64,000 nt of DNA from a virus. The position numbers were made by a program, and so were the translations under genes. The notes beneath the pieces were generated by a model. The model saw only the letters and a list, made by a program, of their open reading frames with translations, was not told where the DNA came from and did not search any database. Where the stretch lies: positions 1 through 64,000 of IMG/VR virus record IMGVR_UViG_3300027302_000005; one strand, written 5' to 3'. Below, in pieces: positions 3,271-63,818 of this stretch (its first letter is position 1; each line of letters opens with the position of its first letter).

Positions 3271-3888
3271 TTCTAAACCCAAACACACTTCCATCCCTTG
3301 CTACACAAAGATTTCAATTAAATCTAGGTGAAATCAATTACAAACACAACATTCTTACTAGAAATAATTATTGAAGCTGTTGCTGAAAACACAACAATCG
3401 TTGCTGAAAGAGCAACAGATATACAAAACTCAAGAGCTTACGCACAACACAATAATAAAAAATGGCTCCGACAGGAGACATTTCCCACAGAATTAGAAAA
3501 TCTTTTACAGCAGGAAATATCTGGTAAAATATCCACCTACTAAAATATCTACAGAAGTAAGTTTTTGTTTGGAGCTTACATCTGGTACGGAAATATCAAC
3601 TAAGGGTTGAATTACACAACACAAAATAAACAACATCCCTATTGTTGAAGTATTCAACAAGACATTGTAGCTCTGGAAGCGAAGCGAACAGAAGCGAGAA
3701 GCTGTTGGAGGATACAACAAAACAGGTTACAACCAAAGTTGAAGCCTACACAACAACAAGACTGAAAGAACGTAGTTCTTAATCTTAGCCTCAGTCAGCT
3801 TCAGTACGAACACAGCAGTCGAAACTGGTTAGAGAAGTTGTGTTTTTGTATTGCTTTAAATCCAACTCCCCTTCCTTATTTATATTAT
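3271..3888. other. long AT-rich intergenic region, possible origin/control
   Basis: About 620 bp between the divergent left cluster and the plus-strand early genes, with no ORF having a credible start. It contains many GTTG/CAAC motifs (GTTGCTGAAA twice near 3380-3410) and three GAAGCGA copies near 3678-3700. It also carries a duplicate of CAGAATTAGAAAATCTTT shared with the left edge (239-257 and 3488-3505). An origin or regulatory role is inferred only from position and composition. Confidence 0.4.
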
Positions 3889-3917
3889 TTGTTTAATTAT
3901 ATATTCAATTATATATT
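3889..3917 (+). promoter_or_regulatory. early promoter upstream of RHH gene
   Basis: TTGTTT (3889-3894) and TATATT (3912-3917) are 17 bp apart in a very AT-rich stretch. The first of four TGACA-CTA-TGTCA palindromes begins 4 bp after the -10, so transcription would start at the repeat array. Confidence 0.5.
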
Positions 3918-3920
3918 AGG

Positions 3921-4000
3921 GTGACACTATGTCAGTATGGTGGGTGACACTATGTCAGGTACTAGTGACACTATGTCAGCCACTCATGACAAGATGTCAG
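3921..4000. repeat. iteron/operator array, GTGACACTATGTCAG
   Basis: Three exact 15-bp copies start at 3921, 3944 and 3965, and a diverged copy lies at 3986-4000. Spacings are 23, 21 and 21 bp, i.e. two helical turns. Each unit is an inverted repeat, TGACA-CTA-TGTCA. The array overlaps the first codons of the RHH gene at 3937 and the predicted transcription start. It could be an autoregulatory operator array, or iterons for the winged-helix protein at 4214. Confidence 0.75.
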
Positions 4001-4284
4001 TGGTTGACAACGGAATTGTGTGCTTGTATAGTCCCCCAGATGACAGTGCTGTTGCTGTAACCATAGGAGACACATACATGATTATCAACCTGAAGATTCC
4101 TGCGTACATTGTTGACTCTATCCAGTCACAGACTGGTGGGGACAAGAGTGTTACAAAGTACATCATGGATTTGTTGAAAGAAAACACAAGGGTTCCAAAG
4201 GAGGAACAAAGAAATGAAGATAAAGAACCAATTCGAGCTAACAAAGCTTATTGTTCGTGCAAGCTGCAATCTGACAACATCTGA
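3937..4284 (+). CDS. ribbon-helix-helix DNA-binding protein (115 aa)
   Basis: The N-terminal ~25 residues read as a DTMS-containing repeat because they are encoded by the operator/iteron array. ATGs at 3952, 3973 or 3994 are alternative starts, and none has a strong SD. After a linker, MIINLKIPAYIVDSIQSQTG and SVTKYIMDLLKEN fit a beta strand plus two helices of an RHH dimer. The gene overlaps the next by 71 nt. Inferred role: binding the palindrome array in its own 5' end, as repressor or copy-control factor. Confidence 0.65.
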   Translation: MVGDTMSGTSDTMSATHDKMSVVDNGIVCLYSPPDDSAVAVTIGDTYMIINLKIPAYIVDSIQSQTGGDKSVTKYIMDLLKENTRVPKEEQRNEDKEPIRANKAYCSCKLQSDNI

Positions 4285-4582
4285 GTGGAGTGTGCTGATC
4301 GTGATAGCTGACCACGTAAGCCACTTGAATGAGTGGGAAGGGTGGCCTACAATTGAACAGATTGCAAAGTACAGCAGATTGTCTGAGCGAACTGTACATA
4401 GAAGCGTTAAGAGTTTAGTTCAGAAGAAGATGTTGTGTGTGAAATCTGGAAAGAGCGGTGTGGCTTCTCACTACAAAATTCTTGTGGAAGCTCTTGATAA
4501 AGACGCTTCGTATGGGATACAATCAACAAATCAAACACATTACGAACTTGACGAGGACGAATATGAAAACGCACCATTTTAA
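4214..4582 (+). CDS. winged helix-turn-helix (HTH_36-like) protein (122 aa)
   Basis: A near-perfect SD (AAGGAGG) lies 9 nt before ATG 4214. Residues about 20-90 hold the pattern SEWSVLIVIADHV ... GWPTIEQIAKYSRLSERTVHRSVKSLVQKKMLCV, typical of the HTH_36 winged helix in phage and plasmid replication initiators. It is short (122 aa), so it is the DNA-binding part alone, with an acidic C-terminus. Next to the palindrome array, a role in origin recognition or early gene control is plausible. Confidence 0.75.
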   Translation: MKIKNQFELTKLIVRASCNLTTSEWSVLIVIADHVSHLNEWEGWPTIEQIAKYSRLSERTVHRSVKSLVQKKMLCVKSGKSGVASHYKILVEALDKDASYGIQSTNQTHYELDEDEYENAPF

Positions 4583-6150: not shown

Positions 6151-6205
6151 TTGACACCCCTTCCCCATTCCTATATCCTCCCAACATCAGCCGCATATTG
6201 CGGCT
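6151..6205 (+). promoter_or_regulatory. promoter plus leader hairpin
   Basis: TTGACA (6151-6156) and TATCCT (6174-6179) are 17 bp apart. The transcript would begin just before a 7-bp hairpin, AGCCGCA (6189-6195) and TGCGGCT (6199-6205) with a 3-nt loop, followed by TCTT. A promoter directly followed by a stem-loop resembles the promoter/stem-loop cassettes described in T4-type phages. The hairpin may also stop read-through from upstream. Confidence 0.65.
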
Positions 6206-6227
6206 TCTTACGAGAGAGAAATACATC

Positions 6228-7115
6228 ATGCGTGGATACAAAGTTTTCAATTCTGACTGGACTTGCCGTGGATTCCAGTTTGCTGTAGGTGAAACCTATA
6301 CCCTACCTAAAGGACAAAAACCAATTGCTTGTAAGCGAGGATTTCACTTCTGCGAACGTGCAGTGGATTGTTTCAATTACTATTCTTTTAACCCCTCTAA
6401 TAAGGTGGCAGTTGTTGAGGCTGTAGGGGAGGTTGTTACAGATGGGGATAAATCCTGCACAAACTCCTTGAGGATTGTTGAGGAAGTTAGTTGGGAGAAG
6501 CTGTTGACTATTGTGAATACAGGGGTTGGTAACTCTGGTTACCAAAACTCTGGTAACCAAAACTCTGGTGACTGGAACTCTGGTAACCAAAACTCTGGTG
6601 ACCAAAACTCCGGTAACCGAAACTCTGGTAACCAAAACTCTGGTAACCGAAACTCTGGTAACCGAAACTCTGGTGACCAAAACTCTGGTGACCGAAACTC
6701 TGGTAACCAAAACTCTGGTAACCAAAACTCTGGTATCCGAAACTCTGGTGACTGGAACTCTGGTAACTGGAACTCTGGTAACTGGAACTCTGGTAGCCTA
6801 AACAGCAACACGCCAGATACAATCAGGATATTTAACAGAGAAATCAAACGCTCCGAGTGGGAAAAGGCAAACATTCCTGACTTCTTTTATTTTAATTTGA
6901 CAACTTTTGTTTTTGAATATGCAATGACACAAGAAGAAAAAGAACAAAACAAGAGATGGGAGAATGTTGGTGGATACTTGAAAACCTTAGACTACAAAGA
7001 AGCATGGCAAGAAAGTTACCGGAAAGCCAGTCAGGAAGATAAGGACAAAGTGAAGAAACTACCTAACTTTGATGCAGATGTATTCTTTGAGATTACAGGG
7101 ATTCGTGTAGAATAA
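6228..7115 (+). CDS. DUF7666-type protein with pentapeptide-like repeats (295 aa)
   Basis: The start is ATG 6228 with GAGAGA 8 nt upstream; the TTG at 6198 lies in the leader hairpin. Residues 1-95 (RGYKVFNSDWTCRGFQFAVG, GFHFCERAVDCFNYY) match a phage domain of unknown function I know as DUF7666. Next come about 18 five-residue units of the type NSG(N/D)(Q/R/W), likely a right-handed beta-helix. A charged C-terminal domain of about 100 residues ends the protein. Pentapeptide-repeat proteins can mimic DNA or act as scaffolds, but no activity is claimed. Confidence 0.75.
   Translation: MRGYKVFNSDWTCRGFQFAVGETYTLPKGQKPIACKRGFHFCERAVDCFNYYSFNPSNKVAVVEAVGEVVTDGDKSCTNSLRIVEEVSWEKLLTIVNTGVGNSGYQNSGNQNSGDWNSGNQNSGDQNSGNRNSGNQNSGNRNSGNRNSGDQNSGDRNSGNQNSGNQNSGIRNSGDWNSGNWNSGNWNSGSLNSNTPDTIRIFNREIKRSEWEKANIPDFFYFNLTTFVFEYAMTQEEKEQNKRWENVGGYLKTLDYKEAWQESYRKASQEDKDKVKKLPNFDADVFFEITGIRVE
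6526..6795 (+). repeat. 15-bp tandem repeat within the coding region
   Basis: About 18 head-to-tail copies of a 15-bp unit close to AACTCTGGTAACCAA encode the NSG(N/D)x pentapeptides. Variation is confined almost wholly to the fourth and fifth codons (GGT-AAC/GAC, CAA/CGA/TGG). The unit lacks stop codons in several frames of both strands, so long false ORFs appear across it. Copy number should vary by slippage or recombination. Confidence 0.9.
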
Positions 7116-11558: not shown

Positions 11559-13220
11559 GTGGCATATCAAAAAGGTAAGACAATGAAACAAGCTGTACGT
11601 TATAACAACCGGGAAAAGCAAGAAACTATTGATGATGTTCTGTCATTGCCTTTCCTTGCAGTTCCAGAACGAGGAATGTGTCAAGAAGATGCTGAATACT
11701 TTGGTATTCGGTCTTCTGTAAGCGAGGCGGATGGAAAAACTATCACAGCAACATACTTCCCTTATTACAACAAGGAAGGTAATCTCACCGGCTTCAAGAA
11801 ACGTGATTGGACAGTTCCGAAAGAAGATGACTTCCATTTCACTGTGGTGGGGAATATCCGCATTTCTTGCCAAATGTTCGGACAGCACGTAGCAAAGCGT
11901 GGCTCTAAGGCAATCTACATTGCTGAAGGGGAGGAAGAAGTGGTGGCTATTCGCCGCTGCATCATCGACTCCTTGAAAGGGAGCCAGTGGGAAGGGAAGA
12001 TAAATCCTTCTGTTGTTGGCCTATCAATGGGAACAGCTAATGCTCAGGAGTGTGTTGCTCACAATGAAGATTTCATTCGTTCCGCCAAGGAAGAAGTGGT
12101 GTTGTGTTTGAACAATGACCATGCAACACCGAAAGAAACTCTGAAAGGTATTAAGAAAGGGAAGGAAGCAACAGAGGATATTGCAGCTTTCTTACTTCTT
12201 GACAATATGTCCACTGTCAAGTTGCCGCCAAACATCAATGATTTCCGTGAAGCCTACATGAAAGGACATGGCAAGTTGATGGGTAAGCGTCTTGCCTTTG
12301 AGCGAGAAACATATTCCCCTGAGAAGATTATTAGTGGGGACAGCGTTTCAATGGAAGAGTTGCTTCTCCCGTTGCAGGAGGGGGTGAAGGTTGATCGGTT
12401 CCCTAGGTTGATGGATAAGCTACACGGCTTTCGCCACATGCCCACAGGAGAGCTTACGCTGTATGCAGCTTTTTCGGGGGTGGGGAAGAGTACCGTTTGT
12501 CGTGAAGTGGCTTGGGAAATTATTCGTCAGACAGAGTTGTCCGTAGGGTTTATCTTCCTAGAAGAAACTCATGTTAAAACTCAACAGGCCATGCTTGCAC
12601 TTGAGCTTGGCATCCCGTTGAACAAGTTTCGCCGTGACCCGTTAGCTTGTGCTACGATGGAAGCTATTGAAAAAGCTAAGAATGCTGTACTGAGCAATGG
12701 ACGTACATACTTCCTTGACCATTTTGGCAGCATGAATGCGGAAAAGCTGATGAACCAGATTAAATATCTGCATTTCATCTGTGGCTGTCAGCACATTGTT
12801 CTTGACCACATTTCTATGGTCGTGTCTGGGCAAGAAAGTAACAACGAACGCAAGGATATTGATATTATTATGACCGAGTTGGCATCTTTTGTGTCAGCCA
12901 ACCCATGCCATATCCACGTTGTTAGTCACCTGAAGCGGGTGGAAGACCCTAATCTGTACAAGAAAAAGAAAGACGATGAAGAACCTCAACCATACTGGAG
13001 AGAATTGAATATTCAGTTGTTGCGTGGTAGTGGCGGGCTTGAACAGATGGCTTTCAATATCATTCTTGTTGAAAACGAAGTGATGCCAGACGGTACACGA
13101 GGGCGGGTGCGGCTGAAGCTTGGCAAGAACCGGGAATGGAGTGAGCTTGGTGTGTGTGATGTATTGATTCAAAAAGAAGACGGAAGGTTGCATAACGCAG
13201 AAGATGATTGTAGTTTCTAA
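11559..13220 (+). CDS. T7 gp4/Twinkle-like replicative helicase with degenerate Toprim domain (553 aa)
   Basis: The GTG at 11559 (AGGA 8 nt upstream) is used; ATG 11583 is an alternative. Residues ~115-230 form a Toprim-like domain: IYIAEGEEE (catalytic Glu region, 123-127) is kept, but the acidic DxD site reads LNND (184-187). Walker A is AFSGVGKST (304-312), with a FIFLEET strand and later LDHISMVVSG and VVSHLKR segments of the RecA-like hexameric helicase. No N-terminal CxxC zinc-binding domain, which T7 primase uses for template recognition, is present. Helicase activity is secure; primase activity is doubtful. Confidence 0.9.
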   Translation: MAYQKGKTMKQAVRYNNREKQETIDDVLSLPFLAVPERGMCQEDAEYFGIRSSVSEADGKTITATYFPYYNKEGNLTGFKKRDWTVPKEDDFHFTVVGNIRISCQMFGQHVAKRGSKAIYIAEGEEEVVAIRRCIIDSLKGSQWEGKINPSVVGLSMGTANAQECVAHNEDFIRSAKEEVVLCLNNDHATPKETLKGIKKGKEATEDIAAFLLLDNMSTVKLPPNINDFREAYMKGHGKLMGKRLAFERETYSPEKIISGDSVSMEELLLPLQEGVKVDRFPRLMDKLHGFRHMPTGELTLYAAFSGVGKSTVCREVAWEIIRQTELSVGFIFLEETHVKTQQAMLALELGIPLNKFRRDPLACATMEAIEKAKNAVLSNGRTYFLDHFGSMNAEKLMNQIKYLHFICGCQHIVLDHISMVVSGQESNNERKDIDIIMTELASFVSANPCHIHVVSHLKRVEDPNLYKKKKDDEEPQPYWRELNIQLLRGSGGLEQMAFNIILVENEVMPDGTRGRVRLKLGKNREWSELGVCDVLIQKEDGRLHNAEDDCSF

Positions 13221-13684: not shown

Positions 13685-15793
13685 ATGAACAAAAACGGTT
13701 GGTACTACGACATAGAGGCTGATTCACTCTACTTACAATCCTCGAAGATTTGGTACATCAAATTCAAGTCCTTGGATGGAAAGAAGGAACTGTCTGTCTT
13801 TCCTTTCCGGGAAGATTGCAAGGACAAGATTGTACAATGGATTAACTCATTCGATGACGGTTGTTTGGTTGTCGGTCATAATATCCTGTCTTACGATGCT
13901 TGGATGATGTGGAAGTTTTTTGACATCAAGCCGCGAGTAGGGAAGGGTGGAAAAGACACTTTCAATGGGAAGGTTGTTCAGTTTGTAGATACGCTTGTCT
14001 TATCTCAGTACTTGCAACCAGACCTGCAATCACACTCACTGGATTTTCTGTCTAGTGGTAGTGATAATGAGAAAATGAACTACCGTAAAGCACTGGTTGA
14101 AGCTGGAGCTATGATTGGAAATGAACCTAAAGGACATGAGTTCAGTCTCTGGCATCCACTGATGCAAAACTACTGCGACGATGACGTTGATGCAGGAATT
14201 GGTGTATTCAACCGTTTATGGAACAAAGCTATTGAGATGTACGGTGAAAAGAACTGGATTCACCCATCGTTCCGCCAAGTACAAAAGGATTTCTTTCTCT
14301 ATGCAGCACAGGCATATAGTGGCGTTAAGTTTGACAAGGAAAAAGCACAAGCACTTGTCGAACACATTACCAAGCAAATGGATGAGTTGAAGAGTCAAGT
14401 TGACCCAGTTCTCCCTGCACGAGAACTGAAAGAAGGTGAGAAGAAGGAATACAAAATCCCTGCCAAGCCTTTTACAAAATCCGGCGAGATGTCAGCAACA
14501 ATGGTGAAATGGCTTGACAAACATCAAGCTAAGGTGATTGACGGAAAGATTCATGCTTACGGGCATGTTGTAGACATTGTGGCCAATGAAATCCTACCAG
14601 TACGTCCACCAATGGAAATCGAAGACAATGCTGAATTGAAGCAATATTTCCTAGATCATGGCTGGATTCCAAGTGACGATCATTGGAACTTTAAGAAAGG
14701 AGAAGATGGTAAGCCTATTCGTGACGATAGGAACAACTACATCAAGACAACACCGAAGATTATGAATGCTGGTGTTATCTGTCCTAATCTTTTGAAGATT
14801 GAAGCGGATGTTCCAGCTAAGGTGGTGAAGTTCTTGTCGTATCGTAATAGACGTTCTGTCGTTGAAGGATGGTTGAGCAATTGGCGTGTTGAGTGGGATG
14901 GGAGGTTGAGTGCTGAAATGAGTGGCTACACGCCAACATTCCGTGTAAAACACAAGACAGTTTGTAACGTCCCTAAAGCAGACCCAAAGGTGTTGCTTGG
15001 TAATGAAATGCGTGAACTATTCACCGTTGACCAAGGAAACTACTATGTAGGTACTGACTCTGCTGCATTGGAGAATAGAACACTGGCAGCATACACAATG
15101 AAATACGATGATGGGGCGTTTGCCGACCTTATTCTACGTGGGGATTCGCACACCTTTAATTCGTTTGCTTTCTTCCCTCACCTACATCAGAAGTTTGATA
15201 TTAATCAGGAAGGGTTGAAGGATGTACCAGAGTTTAAGCCTTGGCGTAATAAGGCCAAGACAGGAGCTTATTTGCTGGCGTATGGTGGAGGTGTGGCTAA
15301 GCTGGCTTCAAGTCTAAGTTTGTCTAAGAAAGAGGCACAAGAATCTTACGACAACTACTGGTCAGCTAATCCGGGCTTAGGTAAGTTGAAAGAAAATGTT
15401 GAGAAGTATTACGACACAACAGGGAAGAAAAAGTATGTTCCGGGGTGGGATGGACGTATTCTCTCTATCCGCCGTAAGAACGTACTAATCAACTGTCTTG
15501 GTCAATCACTCGGAGCTATCTGTCAATCTGTAGCAGCTTGTATGATGGACAACAAGCTTGGTGAAATGTACCTTGATGATAAGTTCCGACCATATTATTT
15601 ATACAAAGGACATACAGTAAAACGCACCAGTTTGGTGCATGATGAATACTCTTGGGAAGTTGAATCAGGGGCTGAAGAGGATATACGCTTACTTACAGTA
15701 GAATGTATTATCAAAGCTGGTGAATACCTTAAACTTCCTATCCCGCTTGATGGGGAGGGAAAGATAGGAAATAATTGGAAAGAAGTTCACTAA
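13685..15793 (+). CDS. T7-type (family A) DNA polymerase (702 aa)
   Basis: The N-terminal 3'-5' exonuclease shows Exo I DIE (9-11), Exo II VVGHNILSYD, and Exo III NYCDDDVDAG. The polymerase domain shows motif A YVGTDSAALENRT, motif B AKTGAYLLAYGG with the conserved Lys and Tyr, and motif C LVHDEYSWEV. Length matches T7 gp5 (704 aa). It replicates phage DNA with the helicase at 11559 and SSB at 16658. No thioredoxin gene was seen in the window, so any processivity factor is host-derived or absent. SD AAGGG precedes the ATG. Confidence 0.95.
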   Translation: MNKNGWYYDIEADSLYLQSSKIWYIKFKSLDGKKELSVFPFREDCKDKIVQWINSFDDGCLVVGHNILSYDAWMMWKFFDIKPRVGKGGKDTFNGKVVQFVDTLVLSQYLQPDLQSHSLDFLSSGSDNEKMNYRKALVEAGAMIGNEPKGHEFSLWHPLMQNYCDDDVDAGIGVFNRLWNKAIEMYGEKNWIHPSFRQVQKDFFLYAAQAYSGVKFDKEKAQALVEHITKQMDELKSQVDPVLPARELKEGEKKEYKIPAKPFTKSGEMSATMVKWLDKHQAKVIDGKIHAYGHVVDIVANEILPVRPPMEIEDNAELKQYFLDHGWIPSDDHWNFKKGEDGKPIRDDRNNYIKTTPKIMNAGVICPNLLKIEADVPAKVVKFLSYRNRRSVVEGWLSNWRVEWDGRLSAEMSGYTPTFRVKHKTVCNVPKADPKVLLGNEMRELFTVDQGNYYVGTDSAALENRTLAAYTMKYDDGAFADLILRGDSHTFNSFAFFPHLHQKFDINQEGLKDVPEFKPWRNKAKTGAYLLAYGGGVAKLASSLSLSKKEAQESYDNYWSANPGLGKLKENVEKYYDTTGKKKYVPGWDGRILSIRRKNVLINCLGQSLGAICQSVAACMMDNKLGEMYLDDKFRPYYLYKGHTVKRTSLVHDEYSWEVESGAEEDIRLLTVECIIKAGEYLKLPIPLDGEGKIGNNWKEVH

Positions 15794-16615: not shown

Positions 16616-16657
16616 AATTAGCGGCGTATGTCCGTATTTAAACTAGGAGAAATAAAC

Positions 16658-17548
16658 ATGGCTTTTAAGCCCCAAGGTAACAAAGACTTCACCCCTCGTT
16701 CTAGCAATGAACCGAAGTACAACTTCCCAATCCCCTCTGATGGGAATCAGGATGCACGTATTTCGTTGATTGTTGATCTTGGTATCCAAAACCAAGAAGA
16801 TGCTGAGGATGAAAAGACAGGTGAAAAACGTCCACGTAAGCCTTGTCAGCAAGTTGCTGTATTTGCTGATTTGGTAGATGAAGAAGTGGATTATGGCGGA
16901 GACATTGGGACTGCACAATACCGCCTGATGCTGAACAAGCAATTCAAGGGAGATATTCAAGGTGTAAACTTTGTTGCAGTCCCACCAAAGGATGCCGATG
17001 GTAATACTATCAAGGGAAAGATGTGGACGATTCATCCAGCCAACCTACTTGCTAAATTAGCCAAGGCCACGGGTAAGGAAGTGATTCTTGGTGGCAATTA
17101 CGAAGACAACATGAATCTTGAACTGTTGCTTGGTCAACCGCTGATGATTAATGTCGAAGTGAAGCAGACAGAATCTGACAAGAAGGATGACAACGGTAAG
17201 CCTATCGTTTATACCAATGTTCGCGCTGCTGGCTACTCCCCTATTCCGAAGAAGAAGGGTGTGCAGCTTGATGTTACTGAATTGAATGTTACACCGAAGT
17301 GTGTTACGTTTGATAATGCTACAGTGGAAGATGTCAAAGTGCTGCGCTACGCTATTCGGAAGAAGATTAAGCTGGCTAACAACTACGCAGGGAGCAAGAT
17401 GCAGGAAGCTATTGAGGAATATGAGGCTAGTTTGGAGCAGGGCAGCAACAACACTCCATCCTCTTCATCTAAGTCAATTAAGGTAGAAAGCAAGAAGCCG
17501 GTTCCGGCTGAAGCTGATGAAGACTTCGAAACCGAAGCACCCTTCTAG
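16658..17548 (+). CDS. T7 gp2.5-like single-stranded DNA-binding protein (296 aa)
   Basis: ATG 16658 with AGGAG 8 nt upstream is chosen over 16628. Like T7 gp2.5 it has a beta-rich core followed by a Ser/Lys-rich linker and an acidic tail ending in Phe (ADEDFETEAPF). That tail binds polymerase and helicase in T7. At 296 aa it is longer than gp2.5 (232 aa). It coats ssDNA and coordinates the replisome with 11559 and 13685. Confidence 0.85.
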   Translation: MAFKPQGNKDFTPRSSNEPKYNFPIPSDGNQDARISLIVDLGIQNQEDAEDEKTGEKRPRKPCQQVAVFADLVDEEVDYGGDIGTAQYRLMLNKQFKGDIQGVNFVAVPPKDADGNTIKGKMWTIHPANLLAKLAKATGKEVILGGNYEDNMNLELLLGQPLMINVEVKQTESDKKDDNGKPIVYTNVRAAGYSPIPKKKGVQLDVTELNVTPKCVTFDNATVEDVKVLRYAIRKKIKLANNYAGSKMQEAIEEYEASLEQGSNNTPSSSSKSIKVESKKPVPAEADEDFETEAPF

Positions 17549-54239: not shown

Positions 54240-55939
54240 TTATGCAAAACCAAACCTTGATGTTGATGTAGTTTCAGGAAGTGAGAATGTTGGAATTGAT
54301 ATTCCAGTTGCTAGCATGGAGAATCCATCTCCGCATGTGTCCACAATATCATCGTGGACTCGCCTGCTACCATCAAAGCCTTCTAGTTCTTGGATAAAGG
54401 CATCATTCCATTCACCGGCTACAATCTTGACATTTCCAGATTCACATGCTGCACAGAATGGGGCAAAACGTTGAACTTTAGACTTAGATGTATGTTTTGA
54501 CTTAGCATAAAATCCATGTTCAGCAAGATCACGAACTAATGTGGAGGCATATTGCTTACCCGCGCTGCCGGGGTCTTGAGGTACTACAATAAGTACGTCA
54601 TCTCCGTCTTGTCTTGCGGTTTCAAGAATCCGTTGAAACACTTCACCATGCCTAGCTCTAAATCTTACAACATCCTCAACATAGTAATTTCCGTACTTGT
54701 CTTTCGATATTAAAGTTCCAACTGTCCAGTCAGGGTCAGGCATTAGTTCAGACGGAACACTTCCGCTAATATCCCATGCTCTTACTTTCTTTGTGATATT
54801 TACAGGGGGGAGGGGTATAATTTCACACCACTCTTTCTTCCAATATCCCGTCCCTTCAGCCGACACATTCCAGTTGCCCCACAGAAGCCTAGCTTTTTCA
54901 ACCCTACCAAGAGCTTCAAGCCATCCAACATATTCAGGCTGATTTTCCATAAGAACTGGATTATCGTAGCATGTGGCATTAATGAAAGTGAAGCTCATCA
55001 CAAGCTCACGCTTCACTTTAAACTGTTCCATCAACTCTTCGGGTGTGTCGGCATAGTAGTTAGTATTGTCTCTACGGACAAAATACCTTATCTGGCCACA
55101 CCTTTCTTCGATAGGATACCCTTCCTCATCAAGCCACCAACTAATCCACTTCTTCACCCATGAGCTAGAATCTGGGTTCATTGTGCAACGGACTCTTGGC
55201 TTCACTTCTGGACAACTCGGATTACGGAGGCGGGAGAGAATGTACATGAACATTTCTTCTTCGTACTGAACGCACTCATCAATAAGTGCTTCAGATATTT
55301 CCATACCTTGCCAGTTGTCTTTATCTTTTAAATGTTCAAAGTGCCTAAGATATATCTCAGCACCAGACGAGAAAACAAACTTGTTTTCCATGCTTTTATA
55401 GCGAACCTTCGGGTCAACCCGCTTGAATAAGTCCATCGCCTTATCAAGCAATCCACCCGGCCCTTTTAACTGTGTAGTAGTTCTTCGGGTAAATACCCCA
55501 CGGAAATTCCTATGATGAATGTGTTGCAGAAAGTCCATTACACCCAAGTATGACTTGCCGCTACCTGCTGCCTTTCAGTTTTAGAGACGCTACCCTCTTT
55601 CCACCATTTATGATGTTGTCGGACTATATCTTCATACCGTTAGGTATGCCCCCCGTTTCGATGTCGCTTGACACCTACTGGCTTACACTCATCGGCCATA
55701 GTCTCTGCACGTTCTTAGTAGTCACTTCGTAACTCTTACCTACGCTTGGGTAGACTAAGCTTCGCTCAGGATTGCCCTCGACTTTACGTTAGGGTTTCCC
55801 TGAATTAGAGGGGTTTTTGTTTTTACAAAACAGGAGGCGCTTATTCACCACCAAAAAATACAATGTCGGCTTTAGAAGTAATAAACATTTCCTGCTTACG
55901 ACTTTTCGGGCCAATCACTTCTTTAGTTTGTTTAGTCAT
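54240..55939 (-). CDS. terminase large subunit, split by a group I intron (474 aa after splicing)
   Basis: Exon 1 is 55939-55847 (31 codons, MTKQTKEVIGPKSRKQEMFI ... ending IVFFGG) and exon 2 is 55571-54240 (443 codons, starting AAGSGKSYLGVMDFLQHI). Only joining them gives the conserved terminase ATPase start IVFFGG-AAGSGKS, the Walker A motif. Exon 2 continues with the acidic LIDECVQYEEE region (Walker B-like), the nuclease-domain DISGSVP and HDDIVDTCGD, typical of TerL RNase H-type nuclease. Unspliced RNA ends after a few intron codons (GAA TAA). It packages DNA with the portal at 52734. Confidence 0.9.
55572..55846 (-). ncRNA. group I intron (275 nt) in terL
   Basis: Core sequences appear in the right order on the minus strand: P-like CAGGGAAACC, Q-like GGCAATCCTGAGC, R-like GTGCAGAGACTA and S-like AAGATATAGTCC. 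The 5' exon ends in T (GGT), the intron starts with G and ends in G (CTGAAAG), as group I splicing requires. No ORF lies inside. The R/S pair (AGACTA with TAGTCC-type bases) forms P7. The Q element closely recalls the cyanobacterial tRNA-Leu intron type, and the S element recalls T4 introns. Confidence 0.92.
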
Positions 55940-62516: not shown

Positions 62517-63818
62517 ATGACTAACAAAGTAGAGATTTTAGATGCAATCATGTCTTCTGGTAAGACTACTGCTATCTTGAACTGGTTTGATAACAACCTA
62601 AACCAAAGGTACATCTACGTAACACCACTGCTGTCGGAAGCTGAAGGAAGAATTGCTGATACAGAGTATGGTTGTAAGTATGCTAAGTTCTACAGTCCTG
62701 AACATGCTACAACAACCTATTTCGATGAAGATGGTGTTGAACGTATAATCAGTGGGAAAGGTGTAGACTTCCTGAGACTGCTAAAGGAAGGAAAGAATGT
62801 AAGCTGTACACATGCTTTGTTCTCAGAGATGACAAAGCACCATCTTGACTGGATTAAGTCACAGAAGTACATTGTTGTACTGGACGAAGAGCTAGATGTA
62901 ATCTCTGGTCTTGATGGATTCACTAAGACAGACAAAGAGTTCCTGCTTGACAACAACACAATCTCTATTGATGAAGAGAATGGTAAGGTTAGTTGGATAA
63001 AGCAAGTACCTAACAATGGATTCAAGTATGGGAAGTTCAAATGGTTGTGTGATGAGGGGATGTTGTATGCAGCCAAACGTTCACAACACATGATGGTGGT
63101 GCAGCTTCCGATTGAACTGATTGCTGCCGCTGAACGGTTCATTGTCCTAAGTTATTTGTTCAAGGGGAGTGTATTTGATAAGTTCCTACAACTTCACAAG
63201 ATTGATACAGCAGATTTCACTGATGTTGTTGTGGATAGTAGGGGCGTGAAGGAACGGATTGCTTCACTGATTGAAATTGTTGGGTTTGAACACACAAGTA
63301 AGTTCCGAACTGGCTCTTTGTCATACAATTGGTATGATGAGTCTAATAATAAGTTGAAACCGATTGAGAATGCTATTACTGGCCTTGGTAGAAGTTTAGG
63401 AATGAAAGCAGAAGATGTGATGTACACATTCCCTAAGACTTATGCCTATCCTTCAAGAAGCAATAGTAGAAAGATTTCAGCTAAAGGCTACAAGCCAGAG
63501 AGCATTATCAAAGGAGTGAGAGATGAATACGGTAACACTGTAATCAATAAGTGTTGGGTGGATTGCTCTTGTCGTGCAACCAATGAGCTTGCCAACAAGA
63601 AGTTGCTTGTACACTGCCTGAACCGCTATCCTAATGCTGTTGTGCAGGCTTTCTTGCAAGACTATGGATATGGTATTGACGAAGACAACTTTGCTTTGTC
63701 AGAGATGTTGCAGTGGATGTTCCGTGGATGCGTACGCAAAGGTGAGAAAATGTATGTTTGCATTCTCAGTAAACGTATGCTAGGATTGTACAATAAATGG
63801 CTGGAGAGTATTAAATGA
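62517..63818 (+). CDS. phage helicase-like ATPase (433 aa)
   Basis: Walker A is SSGKTTAIL (13-21) and Walker B VVLDEELD. THALFSEMTKHH (~98-110) and the later CILSKRM...  fit the two-domain helicase core, SF1/SF2 type. AGAGG SD 6 nt before the ATG. Its stop overlaps the next start (ATGA). First gene of a new plus-strand unit; replication or DNA-processing role expected. Confidence 0.75.
   Translation: MTNKVEILDAIMSSGKTTAILNWFDNNLNQRYIYVTPLLSEAEGRIADTEYGCKYAKFYSPEHATTTYFDEDGVERIISGKGVDFLRLLKEGKNVSCTHALFSEMTKHHLDWIKSQKYIVVLDEELDVISGLDGFTKTDKEFLLDNNTISIDEENGKVSWIKQVPNNGFKYGKFKWLCDEGMLYAAKRSQHMMVVQLPIELIAAAERFIVLSYLFKGSVFDKFLQLHKIDTADFTDVVVDSRGVKERIASLIEIVGFEHTSKFRTGSLSYNWYDESNNKLKPIENAITGLGRSLGMKAEDVMYTFPKTYAYPSRSNSRKISAKGYKPESIIKGVRDEYGNTVINKCWVDCSCRATNELANKKLLVHCLNRYPNAVVQAFLQDYGYGIDEDNFALSEMLQWMFRGCVRKGEKMYVCILSKRMLGLYNKWLESIK

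Follow-up and report, generated by a model that had tools for sequence, protein, structure and literature searches.

Our analysis suggests that positions 3876-3999 of the window (the whole 64,000-nucleotide stretch of DNA studied here, which belongs to an 82,457-bp virus record of a tailed phage) probably constitute an iteron-type replication origin bound by a winged-helix protein, whose gene lies nearby at 4214-4582 on the plus strand. This assignment, which comes from sequence comparison, rests on the array, the initiator type, the recognition helix and the melting region taken together. Three hallmarks of iteron origins are found here: tandem, regularly spaced copies of a candidate protein-binding site (four units, 21-23 bp apart), an AT-rich candidate unwinding element adjoining the repeats (3878-3917) and the gene of a predicted cognate initiator, an HTH_36 protein with a TGACA-type recognition helix encoded about 215 bp off. 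The original prediction of a plasmid-type origin is strongly favoured by comparison as regards shared iteron, initiator type, recognition helix and melting region, albeit with the winged-helix protein rather than a ribbon-helix-helix (RHH) protein as the partner of the array.

The array is made of four exact TGACANNNTGTCA palindromes of 13 bp each, spaced by 23, 21 and 21 bp. Iterons 1 (3922-3934), 2 (3945-3957) and 3 (3966-3978) read TGACACTATGTCA with CTA at their centres, whereas iteron 4 (3987-3999) reads TGACAAGATGTCA with AGA in this place. Since iteron 4 keeps both arms while its centre differs, the arms apparently are the conserved part of the unit. An earlier description of four TGACA-CTA-TGTCA copies at about 21-bp spacing was right as to their number, although the fourth centre differs. 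The array is far above chance: no further exact TGACA-NNN-TGTCA unit occurs elsewhere in the 64-kb window (uniform-base expectation 0.06) and no second tandem pair of units in the whole 82,457-bp record. A likeness of the first repeat to a phage SP6 RNA-polymerase promoter was set aside, as the palindromic arms are constant in all four copies and the centre is variable.

The phage encodes a T7-like primase-helicase at 11559-13220, a family A DNA polymerase at 13685-15793, a terminase and a ribonucleotide reductase, and about 1 kb without good ORFs separates its leftward genes (beginning near 2.9 kb) from its rightward genes (from 4.08 kb), with the array at the right end of this gap. GC skew has its minimum near 3-4 kb; we left it out as origin evidence since gene direction also flips there. 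To the left of the array, the non-coding DNA also holds imperfect GTTG...CAAC palindromes (3606-3621, 3643-3659, 3703-3720), possible sites for a second protein. Farther afield in the window, we noted a group I intron (Rfam RF00028, 90.6 bits; 55600-55856, minus strand) beside the terminase large-subunit ORF (54240-55547), a run of NSGN/NSGD pentapeptide-like repeats in ORF 6198-7115 (plus strand) and, at 62517-63818 (plus strand), a 433-aa ORF with a P-loop-like start (AIMSSGKTT) that falls into PHROG 2467 of unknown function and has no Pfam match.

Immediately left of iteron 1 lies an AT-rich stretch (3876-3917; 40 bp at 95% A+T), our putative DNA unwinding element. It includes 3878-3917, the 40-mer with the lowest stability in the 64-kb window (-35.6 kcal/mol versus a mean of -53.0, sd 3.2), which stops 4 bp short of iteron 1. 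Across the 64 kb and both strands, only five sigma-70-like promoter sites match the consensus at 11 of 12 bases and two of these flank the array, oriented away from each other. The leftward site (3908-3935, minus strand) has its -35 box CTGACA within iteron 1 and its -10 box TATAAT within the AT-rich stretch; the rightward one (4004-4032, plus strand; TTGACA-17-TATAGT) lies just past iteron 4 and is the best rightward promoter. Since it begins beyond iteron 4, transcription likely starts after the array and not, as had been proposed, where the array begins. With two of the five best promoter-like sites of the window either overlapping the array or directly adjoining it, in the very gap between leftward and rightward genes, the layout would suit a scenario in which the winged-helix protein binds it solely as a repressor or switch of divergent promoters while replication starts elsewhere. 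To our minds, such an operator-only role is unlikely, partly as the DNA that melts most easily in the window directly adjoins the array. In the origin reading which we prefer, the array probably doubles as an operator of the winged-helix gene.

The 68-aa RHH-like ORF between array and winged-helix gene had been given a start at 3937, so that the array would encode its first residues. We place its start at 4078 instead (4078-4284, plus strand) since Shine-Dalgarno signals, codon scores and a promoter that lies after the array all point this way. ATG 4078 follows a good Shine-Dalgarno sequence (AGGAG, 4065-4069), whereas the ATGs at 3929-3994 are without one. The codon score is 0.175 for 4078-4281 versus 0.029 per codon for 3937-4077; the latter value falls short of the 5th percentile for real coding sequence (0.052) yet narrowly exceeds the 95th for wrong-frame stretches (0.011). 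While the codon evidence on 3937-4077 is borderline and not decisive, most likely the gene starts at 4078 with the array upstream, which speaks against overlap of array and coding sequence. The RHH label itself is weak: the ORF is there, but it gives no significant Pfam or PHROG match, no RHH_1 hit and a low-confidence structure model too poor to use, with strand-helix-helix order. A single-protein scan of viral contigs found no close relatives either. RHH repressors often bind tandem palindromes in their own promoters and the array sits immediately upstream of this gene, so a CopG- or Arc-type autorepressor with the winged-helix gene as a mere neighbour deserves consideration. We regard this as improbable, given the poor RHH identity, the absence of any match to the RHH-like protein among the ORFs tested at array loci and our observation that elsewhere such arrays accompany a winged-helix gene, with covariation between the iteron and the recognition helix which that gene encodes (see below).

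In agreement with the original prediction of an HTH_36-like gene at 4214, ORF 4214-4582 encodes a 122-aa putative initiator with domain matches to HTH_36 (1.6e-8) and DnaD_N (2.3e-7). It is the sole HTH_36 gene of the 82-kb record, and the array ends about 215 bp before its start codon. The protein falls near PHROG families of replication initiation or O-like proteins and scores 2.4e-13 against a profile of array-linked initiators from which it had itself been left out. Its model reaches a pLDDT of about 90 over most of the domain, and fold matches include phage O protein B0FEC8 (Min27). The predicted recognition helix (SERTVHRSVKSL, residues 57-68, 4382-4417; model helix 58-70) carries Arg59 and Arg63 and, with SERTVHRS, is of the R-x-x-x-R type seen with arrays. 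We found no Rep_3 match, only weak hits in Pseudomonas phages, and no close winged-helix relatives in viral contigs (single-protein scans) or in plasmids. Among solved structures, transcription regulators such as 3r0a come closest in both fold and sequence, and the protein is short compared with the 200-380 aa of most relatives; both points would favour an operator-only role. Against the latter, the relatives linked to arrays are genes of initiator type that take the place of lambda O and contain the array themselves, a position in which an operator role is unlikely.

These relatives emerged from a pattern scan of 2.9 million viral contigs for two tandem TGACA-NNN-TGTCA units. Such tandem arrays occur in at least 119 viral stretches versus 3 for a control with the palindrome read backwards, and among the matches listed their spacing peaks at 21-22. 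Clustering of the array loci among these matches revealed one neighbour family common to 37 of them, namely HTH_36/O-like proteins. In 41 of the 119 listed loci, the array follows the winged-helix domain at a distance of 0-144 bp, nearly always in the same ORF, where it encodes repeats like TDKMS or LTKCQ; no listed locus has it at another distance from such an initiator, and the remaining 78 show no such initiator. Since the profile was built from array-linked loci, the scores of its own members are circular, which applies neither to array position nor to the score of the window protein. In named phages, initiator genes of this type sit where lambda has O, and P or a DnaB-type helicase often comes next. 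When bacterial genomes were scanned separately for three units in tandem, 17 loci emerged, and in four of them such a gene contains the array. Arrays outside the gene are not unique to our phage, since contigs L036 and L061 also hold short winged-helix ORFs with the array outside. DNA directly after the array is unusually unstable in the 41 array-linked loci (median percentile 94 versus random stretches, KS p=1.3e-12), which is not the case for the stretch before it; iterons followed by an AT-rich region correspond to the lambda arrangement (PMC7466680). In contrast, the melting region of our phage lies on the opposite side of the array, away from the gene.

Not every array belongs to a winged-helix gene: some are upstream elements of heat-shock or transporter genes or belong to initiators such as Rep_3. 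In viral contigs, tandem TGACANNNTGTCA pairs occur near Clp/HSP20/HSP70-type genes (L020, L034, L043, L058, L083, L090, L121), where they perhaps form a heat-shock operator, and also near a Rep_3 initiator, while in genomes of Lachnospiraceae and related bacteria triple TGACANNNTGTCA arrays lie beside EamA-type transporter genes (L265, L271, L274, L279, L280). Since tandem TGACANNNTGTCA adjoins heat-shock, transporter and Rep_3 genes, the array alone is not diagnostic. One might hence envisage a generic operator captured by the phage and bound by a host regulator, be it a TetR-type repressor or a heat-shock regulator, as the heat-shock and transporter neighbourhoods would suggest; with the only HTH_36 gene of the record about 215 bp away and its recognition helix matching, we consider this very improbable. 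As for plasmids, the HTH_36 genes examined (L259-L262) contain no TGACA arrays. One of these (L260, Treponema plasmid pTS1) encodes, downstream of ParA, an HTH_36-type protein with two winged-helix-like stretches, and its gene has in-gene coding repeats (MLQNSPC..VAKFPNR) on a plasmid.

The link between recognition helix and iteron helps to tie the winged-helix protein to the array. An R-x-x-x-R helix is present in 40 of the 41 array-linked initiators and in all four array-linked proteins of a separate genome-collection sample, compared with only 8 of 124 records in a sample gathered by protein similarity without array selection, whose proteins mostly are without the second Arg. Under a strict test for tandem TGAC...GTCA, 3 of these 8 but none of the 116 others are positive (p=2e-4); counted by unique helix, p is 0.004, the fairer test since many records are near duplicates. 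When the other five R-x-x-x-R proteins were inspected by eye, four showed TGAC- or GACAC-type repeats and one (L248) a different repeat. The best contrast comes from within one close family, in which genes with the SKRSVMNH helix (Shigella phage SfV and about 70 relatives) are without any TGACA unit, whereas those with SKRSVMRH have arrays (three units in L021 and L150, four in L215).

How might such a short protein start replication? Its C-terminus ends in an acidic tip (YELDEDEYENAPF, 4541-4579, plus strand) that is disordered in the model and, with DEDEYENAPF, has the acidic tail and short hydrophobic motif with terminal Phe of single-stranded DNA-binding (SSB) proteins. Among 110 non-overlapping ORFs of the window, it ties for the most acidic C-terminus with the product of 16628-17548, and both end in APF. 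The latter, a putative SSB only, groups with unnamed PHROG 2544, and we found no Pfam or PDB relative of it. Each of five related stretches has exactly one ORF with an acidic tail ending in PF, and that of L126 is a Gp2.5-like SSB by PHROG profile. C-terminal tails of SSB proteins are known partner-binding elements (PMC9917605), and we infer that the initiator may borrow an SSB-type tail for docking onto replisome partners, although an acidic APF-type tip is not generally shared by the array-linked relatives.

Taken together, this points to a probable origin made of four palindromic sites, two helical turns apart, beside an easily melted AT-rich stretch. Judging from covariation, the winged-helix protein would bind each TGACA-NNN-TGTCA through Arg59 and Arg63, and its loading onto the array would, by analogy with the lambda O model, destabilise the adjacent AT-rich DNA. 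In what is the weakest step, the acidic APF tip, like that of the putative SSB, might then recruit the phage primase-helicase or DNA polymerase. With one promoter-like site partly inside the array and another directly beside it, protein binding to the array is also predicted to repress the RHH-like and winged-helix genes. Some observations speak against an origin: the protein is short and has no other replisome-contact domain, and both array and melting region precede the gene, a mirror image of the order in the relatives. Moreover, in phages with primase-helicases about 55% identical neither array nor winged-helix gene was found, so such phages can replicate without the module, a point in favour of an operator-only role. 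As these are the nearest phages by primase-helicase, their lack of the module also suggests that it was acquired from elsewhere.

A bolder and rather doubtful extension of the origin reading would see a minimal two-part initiator, in which an iteron-reading winged helix is joined to an SSB-like tip that docks directly, without a helicase loader, on the T7-like primase-helicase or polymerase. On this view, a lambda-style origin module would have left its gene and been grafted onto a T7-style replisome, with a helix code (Arg at helix position 7 reads TGAC half-sites) that holds across dozens of phages. Most phages known only from sequence have no assigned replication start. With a helix signature linked to a specific iteron, one could match origins with their initiators by sequence, and exchanging a single residue (SfV-type Asn versus Arg) would put specificity to the test. 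The module of the present phage also hints at a way of coupling a lambda-type initiator to a T7-like replisome that the phage encodes itself.

Known systems share parts of this design. Closest in iteron, spacing and helix signature are HTH_36 (PF13730) initiators with in-gene arrays (for example Vibrio phage 1.216.O, L146), in which the array encodes a segment that follows the winged-helix domain and an unstable stretch comes next, whereas in our phage the array precedes the gene and the order is a mirror image. Among plasmids, the winged-helix N-terminal domain of staphylococcal pSK41 (RepA_N) binds four Rep boxes centrally within rep, and a pPR9-type hybrid initiator, whose N-terminal PF13730 domain is like that of a phage protein, supports autonomous replication (PMC5703833). 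We liken both to the window by domain type and, for pSK41, by the four boxes; their Rep proteins have a C-terminal domain for host partners where ours has a short acidic tail only. pSK639, a Rep_3 plasmid, has tandem 22-bp repeats upstream of rep near the rep promoter, a proposed origin and operator (PMC5703833); its layout is like that of the window, but its initiator is of a different family with two winged helices. Lambda O and ori-lambda, including their Stx-phage versions, use inverted-repeat iterons of about 19 bp that are bound by a dimeric initiator beside an AT-rich region (PMC7466680). Our phage likewise combines repeated inverted-repeat iterons and an AT-rich region with a winged-helix domain of the O-like/HTH_36 group, near O-like PHROGs. 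It differs in iteron sequence, in a far shorter protein, with a short low-confidence tail after the domain in place of a C-terminal domain that recruits helicase via P, and in encoding its own primase-helicase; no P-like helicase loader was seen. The lambda origin sits inside the O gene, while iterons and AT-rich region are here outside and upstream. The module may function as a lambda O/ori-like pair located outside the gene, and our best reading by analogy is that it would resemble lambda O/ori in its working while departing from it in the in-gene feature.
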